The translations under genes and the position numbers were made by a program. 64,000 nucleotides of DNA from Bacteroidota bacterium (lineage in GTDB: Bacteria; Bacteroidota; Bacteroidia; Flavobacteriales_D; Sanyastnellaceae). The stretch lies in assembly GCA_027624855.1 (NCBI GenBank), contig JAQBTQ010000002.1, positions 62,001 through 126,000 on the forward strand, written 5' to 3'. Of the stretch, positions 2,529 through 31,452 are shown in pieces (positions within the stretch are counted from its first letter, which is position 1; every line of letters begins with the position of its first letter). The notes under the pieces are model-generated. The model saw only the letters and a list, made by a program, of their open reading frames with translations, had not been told where the DNA came from and ran no database searches.

Positions 2529-3250
2529 TCTGCGGTTTCATTCAAGCAATTCAAATAAGTCTGAATGGTGGTTTCAAGTCCATCATAGAGTGCGTCAGCG
2601 ATAAGCGCATGACCGATGCTGACTTCTTCGAGGTATGGAACATTTTGGGCAAAAAATCGGAGGTTTCTCGCATCCAAGTCATGGCCTGCGTTCACACCCA
2701 ACCCACAGCCATGCGCAAACGTTGCTGCCTTGGAAAATGGGATTACAGCTTCCGCGGCATGCGAATGAAAGGCTTGCGCATAGGGCTCGGTATACAATTC
2801 AATCCGATCCGCTCCGACACGAGCACAACCCTCTATTTCAGCGGCATCAGTAGAGACGAAAAGGCTGGTGCGGATTCCGTTGTTTTTCAATTCGGAAAGT
2901 ATATCTTCAAGCAACGACGCATTGGGCTTTACCTGCCATCCTGCGCATGATGTAAGCACATCTGGGCCGTCTGGCACCAAGGTCACTTGATGGGGCTTTA
3001 CCTCCAAAACAAGCCGTAAAAACTCCCTTGACGGGTATCCTTCAATGTTAAATTCGGTCGAAATGATGGGTTTCAATTCGCGAACATCTTGGTATGTAAT
3101 ATGGCGCGCATCGGGCCGGGGATGAACTGTAATTCCTTGAGCACCAAATGTTTGTATGGATTTGGCCGCCTGGATCAAATTGGGGACATTTCCACCTCGG
3201 GCATTGCGAAGTGTCGCTATTTTATTGACGTTGACGCTGAGTTGAGTCAT
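2525..3250 (-). CDS. pdxJ: Pyridoxine 5'-phosphate synthase
   Basis: Last step of the DXP-dependent vitamin B6 route: condenses 1-deoxyxylulose 5-phosphate with 3-amino-2-oxopropyl phosphate in the cytoplasm. The start at 3250 gives 241 residues, the normal family length, and begins with the family's conserved strand ([15 protein letters not shown]). An in-frame start further upstream would add 18 residues with no family character. Catalytic residues are visible: His43, Arg45 and His50 in the [12 protein letters not shown] segment, Glu70 in TEFNIEG, and the late histidine in NAGHDL. It is divergent from the CBS/nadK envelope cluster and coupled to the downstream hydrolase. Confidence 0.96.
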
Positions 3251-28636: not shown

Positions 28637-29893
28637 ATGTCCCAACTCGAAATGAAAGTACCCAGTCCCGGGGAATCAATCAGTGAAGTTGAAATTGCCG
28701 CATGGCTGGTATCTGACGGTGATTATGTAGAAAAAGACCAAGCCATTGCTGAAGTTGATTCGGATAAGGCAACGCTTGAATTGCCGGCAGAGGCAGCAGG
28801 TGTGATTACGCTGAAAGCAGAGGAAGGAGACACCATCGAAGTTGGAGCTGTATGCTGTCTGATAGATACAAGTGCTGCTCCGCCTAAGGGAAAGAAGGCT
28901 GAGACAAAGAAAAAGACGGATACAGCAACACAGGAGCAGGCATTGCCGACTCCCGCACCTGCTCCCGTGGCAGTAGTTGCTGAATCCAGCAGTCATGCAA
29001 CAGGACATCCGTCTCCTGCGGCCAAAAAGATGCTTTCAGATCTGGGCATTTCAACGACCCAAGTATCGGGTACGGGCCGGGACGGTAGAATCCTTAAGCA
29101 AGATGTACTAGCGGCAATGGCTGACGGTTTTGACCAAAGTAGCGCTCAATCATGGGGGGGAAGTCGTGACTCGAGACGGGAAAAAATGTCCATGCTTCGT
29201 CGTAAAGTGGCGGAACGATTGGTCGGAGTGAAAAATGAAACGGCCATGCTGACCACATTCAATGAGGTCGATATGAAGCCGGTAATGGACCTACGGGCGA
29301 AGTATAAGGATGCATTTCGGGAAAAGTATGGGGTCGGACTGGGATTCATGAGCTTTTTTACAAAAGCCGTGACCCATGCAATTGCTCAATTTCCAGCAGT
29401 CAACGGAATGATTGACGGAAAGGAAATTGTGTTGCCTGAATACGCGGACATTGGAATCGCGGTGAGTTCACCTAAAGGACTCATGGTTCCTGTCCTTAGG
29501 AATGCCGAGACCATGAGCTTGGCACAAATTGAAGCCGAGATAAAGCGTTTGGCCATTCGAGCCCGAGACGGCGAGCTTTCGATCGAAGAGATGCAGGGAG
29601 GGACCTTCACCATAACGAATGGAGGGGTCTTTGGCTCCATGCTATCCACTCCGATTATCAATCCACCGCAAAGTGCAATCCTGGGTATGCACAATATTGT
29701 GGAAAGGCCAGTAGCAGTAAATGGAGAGGTGGAAATACGGCCGGTCATGTATGTCGCCTTGAGCTATGATCATCGAATCATTGACGGAAAAGAAAGTGTC
29801 GGATTCTTGTATGCTATCAAGGAGATGATTGAACAGCCGGAGCGGCTATTGTTCACCGGTAAAAGTCCAGAGGAGGTGCTCCTAGGACTGTAA
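28637..29893 (+). CDS. sucB: Dihydrolipoyllysine-residue succinyltransferase (E2o)
   Basis: Core of the 2-oxoglutarate dehydrogenase complex, 418 residues. The lipoyl domain covers 1-77 with the lipoylated Lys44 in DSDKA. A proline/alanine linker leads to the subunit-binding domain at about 123-160 ([23 protein letters not shown]). The catalytic domain carries His379 and Asp383 in [11 protein letters not shown]. The 93 bases after sucA hold no evident gene or strong promoter, so the two are probably one operon. A bidirectional terminator follows the stop codon. Confidence 0.96.
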
Positions 29894-29913
29894 AGTCTCA
29901 ATGGTGTCGTAAA

Positions 29914-29948
29914 CAAAAAAACCCTTCGCCTTTAGACGAAGGGTTTTC
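29914..29948 (+). terminator. Terminator after sucB (probably bidirectional)
   Basis: Stem ACCCTTCG at 29921-29928 with CGAAGGGT at 29937-29944, an eight-base loop, an A run before it and a T run after it. It lies 27 bases after the sucB stop codon. The flanking A and T runs allow it to work for both strands. Confidence 0.85.
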
Positions 29949-29985
29949 AGGTTTGAATGTTTTGCGGGCTCCGTTTATGACGCAT

Positions 29986-30026
29986 TAAAAAACCCATTGC
30001 GTCAGCAGGACTGTACACAATGGGTT
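29986..30026 (-). terminator. Terminator on the reverse strand, downstream of rodA
   Basis: Perfect nine-base stem (AACCCATTG at 29991-29999, CAATGGGTT at 30018-30026) around an 18-base loop, followed on the reverse strand by a run of T. It fits as the end of the mreB-rodA operon, or of the short transcript proposed at 29986-30051. Confidence 0.8.
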
Positions 30027-30051
30027 TGAAGGGTCATTCTAAACAAAGCAC
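29986..30051 (-). ncRNA. Candidate small RNA of about 65 bases
   Basis: A full reverse-strand promoter (30055-30086) is followed about 30 bases later by the perfect terminator at 29991-30026. A transcript starting near 30051 would be about 65 bases and consist of a short A/T-rich head and a long terminator hairpin. No reading frame of note is inside. It could equally be that the hairpin only ends the rodA message and the promoter match is chance. Confidence 0.3.
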
Positions 30052-30054
30052 GTG

Positions 30055-30086
30055 CAAATATACGAAATTTAGCCGCTATAATCCAA
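30055..30086 (-). promoter_or_regulatory. Complete reverse-strand promoter downstream of rodA
   Basis: On the reverse strand: TTG (complement at 30084-30086), 21-base spacer, TATATTTG (complement at 30055-30062). Both boxes match the Bacteroidetes consensus exactly. It points away from rodA into the space before sucB. The palindrome GCACGTGC at 30048-30055 lies at the expected transcription start. Confidence 0.5.
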
Positions 30087-30129
30087 ACGTAATCAATAAA
30101 AATTTCGATGAATTAAGTATATATATCGA

Positions 30130-31452
30130 TTAACGCAAAACTGTAAATCGCTCCGCATCCAGGCGTAACAAAATGAAAATGAGTAAGGTAAATCCAATCA
30201 ACGAGGAACCTCCGGCACTCACAAACGGAAGTGGAATTCCAATGACTGGTGCGAGTCCAATGACCATTCCAACATTGATCAGATAATGCATGAAAAGAAT
30301 GCTCGCAACTCCGTAAGCGTATATCCTGGTAAAGGCACTTCGTTGGCGTTCGGCGAGCATCAAAATGCGCACTAGTAACCCCGTGAACAAAATGAGCACG
30401 AAAGAGGAGCCAAAGAAACCCCATTCTTCTCCGATGGTGCAGAAGATGAAATCTGTTTCTTGTTCTGGGACAAACCCGTAGGCCGTCATGGGACCTTGCA
30501 AAAAACCTTTGCCTGTCCAACTGCCAGAACCAATCGCGGCCTTTGAATGTCGGATGTTGTAATCCGCATCTGGATTTCCCACGTCGATCCCGAACAAGAC
30601 ATGAATTCTATCTCTTTGATGAGGTTTCAAAACCTTTTCCATTCCGCCGTGCAGCATGCCACTGAACCCGATACTCGCAATGCCGGAAATTAAAATGACA
30701 CGTCGAACAAATTTTCTTCTACGCGGAACAATCCAGTAAGGAGTTGTTATCCAAAGGATTAATCCAATTCCCAAAAGGACTCCCCACAACATAAATACAG
30801 CGGAATGGCTCCCGATTACAGGGTAATTGAGTTGGTTCGCTCCTGTTAGGATGGTGGCAACGGTAATCAGAAGTGCAGAGAATACACCCATTAACACGTT
30901 GCCCGAGAGGCCTTCGCGATAAAAGACAAAAATCAAACCGCCAAAAACCAGAACTGTACCGGCATCAGGCTGAAGCAAGATGAGTCCCGCGGGAATTCCT
31001 ATCACGATGATGGCCTTGATTAGGTTGTCGCGAGTTGCAATTTTTTCTGAAGTTCGACTCAATAGCCAGGCCAGCATCAGGGCAGTCCCTGTTTTGGCAA
31101 ATTCCGAGGGTTGGATACCGACGTTGCCGAAAGAAAACCAAGATTTCGCACCTCCAATGGTTTTACCAATAGCCAGGACCGCTAGCAGTGTCAGCAAATT
31201 GAATCCATAGTGGATTACAGCAGTTTTGATAAAGAATTCTCCTTCAATGAGTAGGATAGTGGCAGCGAATAGGATGCCAATGGCGACCCATATGATTTGT
31301 TTTCCCTGTTTATTGCCCCAATCAAACCAATCGACTGCATCAGCGCCAGAAGTCGCACTTGCCACATTGAAAAGGCCAATGATCATCAAGGCCATTACAG
31401 CGGCAGCGGTAAACCAGTCGATTCGTTGAAAGATTGGGGCAGTCCTCCTCAT
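30130..31452 (-). CDS. rodA: Rod-shape SEDS glycosyltransferase RodA
   Basis: Polytopic inner-membrane protein of 440 residues in the SEDS family, which polymerises peptidoglycan strands together with its partner PBP2. About ten hydrophobic spans are visible. Family segments include PSEFAKTGTALMLAWLLS, LLQPDAGTVLVFG (with the conserved Asp), KAAIGSGSWTGKGFLQG, and near the end GIPLPFVSAGGSSL. Its start overlaps the end of mrdA by four bases. Downstream lie a reverse-strand terminator and no further genes of this operon. Confidence 0.95.
   Translation of the reverse strand: MRRTAPIFQRIDWFTAAAVMALMIIGLFNVASATSGADAVDWFDWGNKQGKQIIWVAIGILFAATILLIEGEFFIKTAVIHYGFNLLTLLAVLAIGKTIGGAKSWFSFGNVGIQPSEFAKTGTALMLAWLLSRTSEKIATRDNLIKAIIVIGIPAGLILLQPDAGTVLVFGGLIFVFYREGLSGNVLMGVFSALLITVATILTGANQLNYPVIGSHSAVFMLWGVLLGIGLILWITTPYWIVPRRRKFVRRVILISGIASIGFSGMLHGGMEKVLKPHQRDRIHVLFGIDVGNPDADYNIRHSKAAIGSGSWTGKGFLQGPMTAYGFVPEQETDFIFCTIGEEWGFFGSSFVLILFTGLLVRILMLAERQRSAFTRIYAYGVASILFMHYLINVGMVIGLAPVIGIPLPFVSAGGSSLIGFTLLIFILLRLDAERFTVLR

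Follow-up and report, generated by a model that had tools for sequence, protein, structure and literature searches.

Organization of the sucB–rodA intergenic region

What occupies the 236 bases between the convergent genes sucB and rodA, and does the promoter-like sequence within this gap express an RNA of its own? The window (the whole 64,000-nucleotide stretch of DNA that was analysed) belongs to the genome of a marine bacterium, 2.29 Mb in 40 contigs, and the original prediction placed a minus-strand small RNA gene of about 65 bases in the gap. Comparison within the genus supports a gene with its own promoter, present in 19 of 20 syntenic gaps, although not the extent first predicted for it. 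We favour, at a probability of about 0.6, a stand-alone minus-strand small RNA gene of ~135–140 nt that would start near 30050 and stop at 29948–29917. The comparison supports the gene, its −7 box, its length and its last hairpin, and from these we infer that the element is transcribed.

The genus sample contained 22 genomes, two of which (G003, with a partial rodA match, and G021, with none) were dropped as a sucB match was absent; sucB and rodA are convergent in all 20 genomes that hold both genes at cut-off. rodA ends a minus-strand gene group that also contains mreC, one further frame and a gene with penicillin-binding protein 2 domains (TIGR03423, slightly below cut-off). The element has one match per genome, and its 19 sequences were sorted by eye into four groups: A (nine), B (four), C (five) and D (one). 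Two covariance models were built, R1 from the nine group A sequences alone and R2 from all 19. The features of the region are as follows (window coordinates).

28637–29893, plus strand: sucB, the convergent neighbour (TIGR01347 and NF004309 above cut-off)
29912–29948, minus strand: second terminator hairpin and T run, where the RNA is predicted to end; the tail is T-rich in all 19 orthologues
29949–29962, minus strand: linker AAACAUUCAAACCU, predicted unpaired, candidate functional site
29963–29989, minus strand: 3′ arm of the rod, in which UAAACGGAGC (29977–29968) is predicted to pair with GCUUUGUUUA (30049–30040)
29990–30027, minus strand: core hairpin AAACCCAUUG...CAAUGGGUUU, the terminator of the original prediction, with a T run after it in the window genome
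30028–30051, minus strand: 5′ arm of the rod, GUGCUUUGUUUAGAAUGACCCUUC
30049–30051, minus strand: predicted transcription start, about 30050, placed from the published position of TAnnTTTG
30055–30062, minus strand: −7 box TATATTTG, of the Bacteroidota sigma-A type TAnnTTTG
30084–30087, minus strand: −33 box TTTG; an exact TTTG 19–21 bases from the −7 box occurs in four of 19 orthologues, all in group A
30130–31452, minus strand: rodA, the same-strand upstream neighbour (NF037961 above cut-off, PF01098; TIGR02210 slightly below cut-off)

At four loci from other genera of the family (L069, L070, L071 and L075) the 350 bases past rodA contain a short frame that includes consecutive cysteine codons, and then a terminator-like hairpin. 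The gene start beyond the hairpin presumably resembles that of a cysteine synthase, and the frame and hairpin are possibly a cysteine leader-peptide attenuator.

Putative promoter and predicted transcription start

The exact −33 and −7 boxes with 21-base spacing that drew attention to this gap are present as described, TTTG at 30087–30084 and TATATTTG at 30062–30055 on the minus strand. By themselves the boxes are weak evidence. In the 64 kb TTTG-N21-TAnnTTTG occurs once, against 0.13±0.34 in 30 first-order Markov resamplings, the pair at a spacing of 19–21 also once (0.53±0.81 expected), and TAnnTTTG alone 27 times (29.6 expected). A simple scan, which contains no Bacteroidota promoter model, listed no sigma-70-type promoter in the gap.

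Conservation is more informative about the −7 box. It was located by script with the pattern TAnnTTT[G/A], at places where model R1, which does not include the box, had also matched, and it is present in all 19 orthologues (TAnnTTTG in 16, A-ended in three), 28–30 bases ahead of the motif CCCATTG in every case. Its mean pairwise identity across the 19 is 0.86, the highest of any segment, with 0.50–0.63 for the transcribed parts (linker 0.58), 0.41–0.47 upstream and 0.16 past the terminator. Within group A the values are 0.81 for the −7 box, 0.83 for the linker, 0.69–0.73 for the arms, hairpin and terminator and 0.57–0.59 upstream, a modest contrast between the element and its upstream sequence. 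The concern that both boxes might be lost in relatives that keep the terminator is thus justified for the −33 box (exact in four of 19) but not for the −7 box (19 of 19).

PMC9723704 places TAnnTTTG at −12 to −5, and the start is therefore predicted near 30050. The palindrome said to coincide with the start, GCACGTGC, is indeed present at 30055–30048, its first base being the last base of the −7 box; it is peculiar to the window (one of 19), being absent from the gaps of all 18 other orthologues. A short leader peptide beginning at a GUG or AUG near the start was considered and rejected, as inspection by eye gave no frame common to the 19 sequences.

Anatomy and length of the predicted RNA

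A hairpin with a T run is found where the original prediction had placed its terminator: the inverted repeat AAACCCATTG/CAATGGGTTT pairs 10 bp (30027–30018 with 29999–29990) and is followed by T residues. Its stem is 96.7% paired across the orthologues and CCCATTG is present in all 19. The T run after it is variable, with at least five T in 10 of 19 (window included) and only two to four in the other nine, which comprise six of the seven A1 sequences and three of the four in group B. The terminator scan did not list this core hairpin because its loop limit is 8.

The hairpin sits inside a larger predicted rod, and a second hairpin lies ~40 bases further on. This second hairpin (29948–29917), the only terminator-like site that the scan listed in the gap, has in every one of the 19 a stem with 6–8 T among the 8 bases that follow it; in L064 the script had mis-set the stem, which was read by eye. 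The transcript is probably 130–140 nt rather than 65 nt in length, and the main product in the window would be ~135–140 nt, because the second tail is T-rich in all 19 and the first T run is present in 10; a 65 nt form is possible in some species. Despite turnover of the sequence, the rod is 86–89 nt long (89 nt in the window) and the whole predicted RNA 128–135 nt across all 19. The region of the linker contains GCA[A/G]A[A/C]C and AACC in every orthologue, and in a fold of a longer stretch of the window the linker is unpaired except for its last two or three bases.

T runs flank the second hairpin (29917–29948) on both strands of the window, and sucB transcripts may end here as well. The plus-strand run of four T is found in the window and three of the four group B members and is absent from 15 of the 19 sequences.

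Folding and covariation

The sequence 29980–30051 folds with z = −2.86 and 29912–30051 with z = −8.26, and in each case none of 200 shuffles folds as well. For the rod the mean z is −3.90 on the minus strand and −3.17 on its complement, both below shuffles, although rod folding is not outstanding in L064, L066 and L067. Since folding energy is low on both strands, the strand was assigned from the −7 box and the T-rich tails.

Covariation had been proposed as a check of the hairpin, and here the core stem is too nearly invariant to be informative either way; it is the outer rod pairs of group A that show double changes. Standard pairs make up 94.4% of 358 cells in the group A rod, as against 38.6–52.7% when the partners are slid. 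Four pairs show double changes, a number reached in 15 of 500 shuffles, and the covariation score is matched in none of 500. The signal is small, because sliding the partners by +3 gives comparable counts (three pairs and six double-change cells, against four and five observed) and because the alignment used for the count had also supplied the structure. We regard the group A covariation as real, if modest.

Pairing of the arms was compared with that of shuffled and exchanged arms. Own arms pair better than their shuffled counterparts (p < 0.01) in eight of nine group A sequences (L058, p = 0.052) and in two of the ten from groups B, C and D (L063, p = 0.004; L068, p = 0.006); in L066 and L067 they are no better than shuffled arms at all. 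Arms swapped between groups average −12.2 kcal/mol, as against −17.2 kcal/mol for own arms, and for L064–L067 between 16 and 22 of 28–36 swaps are as good as the sequence's own arms. The outer helix of the rod is accordingly supported for the nine group A sequences and only suggested elsewhere. In the second terminator the stem sequence is replaced between groups with the pairing retained (L064 read by eye).

Distribution within the genus and family

A DNA search of 100 genomes found the stretch in nine, among them that of the window, and every one of the nine belongs to the same genus. With filters off, R1 was run against 11 other loci and gave its best match at the expected place in all ten loci of groups B, C and D (E = 0.0026–0.4 in 47.5 kb); in a faster whole-genome search it recovered the nine genomes of group A only, of 114. 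R2 found one copy in each of 19 of the 114 genomes, all of them genus members used to build it, and none in the remaining 95 (three genus members and 92 genomes from the family's other genera), in a search that scored 33 candidates per genome under strict filters, through which weak relatives could slip.

In a search for homologues in other genera, R1 produced six matches with E of 1 or less on a set of 46 loci; five of them lie in the genus records L080, L081 and L082, and two of these five are on the opposite strand. The sixth, L085, was taken as noise (E = 0.55). Across 48 sources R2 matched the window and L080 and nothing else.

The twentieth syntenic gap (L059, genome G007) is intact (about 2824–3016) and contains no recognisable element, so that it was excluded from the 19-sequence alignment. 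Its best R1 match, 49 bases within the gap (9.9 bits, E = 2.9), is possibly a decayed remnant. The absence from this locus and the lack of matches in other genera indicate that the element is dispensable.

A DNA-level repeat or palindrome was also considered. The pattern CCCATTG...CA[A/G]TGG has, among the matches listed, 5 to 17 occurrences per genome on both strands in all 22 genus genomes, with 0–2 per genome for the pattern read backwards; the spacers seem unrelated among the matches listed, and the counts carry little weight for or against such a repeat.

Relationship to known RNA families

The window has no match over the gathering threshold of any Rfam family. Lax searches of the window stretch and 13 orthologous loci gave sub-threshold matches only, with no 6S family among them; PyrR was the top match in the window (29.6 of 54 bits, E = 0.02 for 261 bases). 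The 6S-Flavo model (RF01685, cut-off 85 bits) matched none of 40 relatives including the window genome, where the built-in control also matched nowhere. As a positive control it was above cut-off in eight of 14 other genomes (Winogradskyella, Maribacter, Cellulophaga, Aquimarina, Kordia, Xanthomarina, Psychroflexus and Tenacibaculum), the six without a match being two Brumimicrobium, two Fluviicola and two MAG records. The 6S-Flavo RNA is, like the element, a structured Flavobacteriales RNA with a rod and loops; at its eight loci, however, the closing stem appears by eye to lie outside the 106–130 nt match and to double as terminator, whereas the rod of the element is 86–89 nt.

No paper on the element RNA was found among titles and abstract openings in the open PMC literature, small RNAs of the Crocinitomicaceae included. 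By description alone it can be likened to the Rfp small RNAs of a different bacterium, Flavobacterium psychrophilum (e.g. Rfp18), which PMC9723704 presents as independent short non-coding transcripts with a median of 176 bp, some strongly structured. FopS and GibS of Bacteroides, small RNAs bound by the protein RbpB, have an intrinsic terminator as predicted here, and by analogy may share with the element an RRM partner (PMC11697453). FopS has a single-stranded 5′ stretch before its terminator (PMC11697453), whereas the 5′ end of the element would lie in the rod and its free stretch is internal; no FopS/GibS-type 5′ single-stranded stretch straight before the terminator was found, the 5′ end of group A being in the rod helix. 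The same source gives FopS 14 members in Bacteroides thetaiotaomicron, in contrast to one match per genome for the element.

Alternative interpretations

The gap could be a mere end region of rodA and sucB, in which the hairpins stop both transcripts without a separate RNA, as the convergence in 20 of 20 genomes, the lack of another listed terminator-like site after rodA and the T residues on both sides of the window's second hairpin would suggest. A terminator has no need of a promoter, however, and the −7 box has the highest identity of all segments across the 19 sequences (with the caveat that in group A the linker is level with it) and keeps a constant distance to CCCATTG. The linker and the length of the rod are also preserved, and the plus-strand run of four T is confined to the window and three of four group B members; we consider this reading unlikely. 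The original proposal, a 60–70 nt RNA that stops at the first hairpin, agrees with the strength of that hairpin and the T run behind it in the window and with the T runs of at least five in 10 of 19. It sits poorly with the two to four T in the other nine, with the pairing of the arms outside the hairpin in group A, and with the retention of the linker and the second T-rich hairpin in all 19, and seems distinctly improbable as the general product.

A 6S-like RNA specific to this lineage, binding RNA polymerase, would account for the internal loops of the rod and for its closing helix. It would also fill a vacancy: the 6S-Flavo model is silent in the 40 relatives and in the six Brumimicrobium, Fluviicola and MAG genomes and matches all eight others, which leaves the 6S RNA of the family unaccounted for. 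Yet 6S families are missing from the matches even at lax thresholds, the rod differs from the 6S-Flavo layout in length and closing stem, and other genera of the family have no match, where a 6S RNA would be expected to be more widespread. We give this reading little credence, and marginally less to a bolder form of it, in which a fast-evolving, genus-specific regulator of RNA polymerase at the end of the rod-shape cluster replaces the undetected 6S RNA of the family. Equally slight is the chance that the RNA is a cis-antisense regulator, influencing the stability of sucB mRNA by pairing at its 3′ end. The convergent layout in 20 of 20 genomes and the lack of a plus-strand four-T run past the second hairpin in 15 of 19, such that sucB mRNA may enter the element, would permit it, but antisense pairing requires neither a conserved structure nor a conserved linker, and the modelled RNA stops ~18 bases short of the sucB stop codon.

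Proposed expression and function

In the favoured reading of a stand-alone small RNA gene, RNA polymerase would start near 30050 from the Bacteroidota sigma-A promoter and stop at the hairpin 29948–29917, giving an RNA of ~135–140 nt. Three parts would make up this RNA: an 89 nt rod in which the 5′ end is closed in a helix, then a linker rich in A and C, and finally the terminator hairpin. The scan listed no terminator separating rodA from the element, and rodA mRNA would therefore carry the same sequence at its 3′ end, so that the RNA could arise both from its own promoter and by processing.

The most likely function is that of a genus-specific small RNA which acts in trans and perhaps has an RRM protein as partner; the accessible linker would be where it contacts mRNAs or an RNA-binding protein of the RRM type. 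The window genome has two RRM_1 matches and no match to Hfq. In B. thetaiotaomicron the RRM protein RbpB binds small RNAs with a preference for single-stranded regions (PMC11697453), which by analogy makes the conserved linker, predicted to be unpaired, the most probable site of contact. No common target emerged from the exact complement (14 bases) of the A1 linker: it has 10 matches, in 10 of the 22 genus genomes, six of which are the element itself and four lone scattered sites.

The element is credible as a new small RNA family, ordinary in kind and found, as far as searched, in one genus. With it, an uncultivated Flavobacteriales genus would gain a defined small RNA family, in a window with no Rfam-recognised RNA, and the element's fixed place and length and probable contact site make it searchable in existing metatranscriptomes. 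If the RRM partnership is true, a form of regulation known from gut Bacteroides would extend beyond them.
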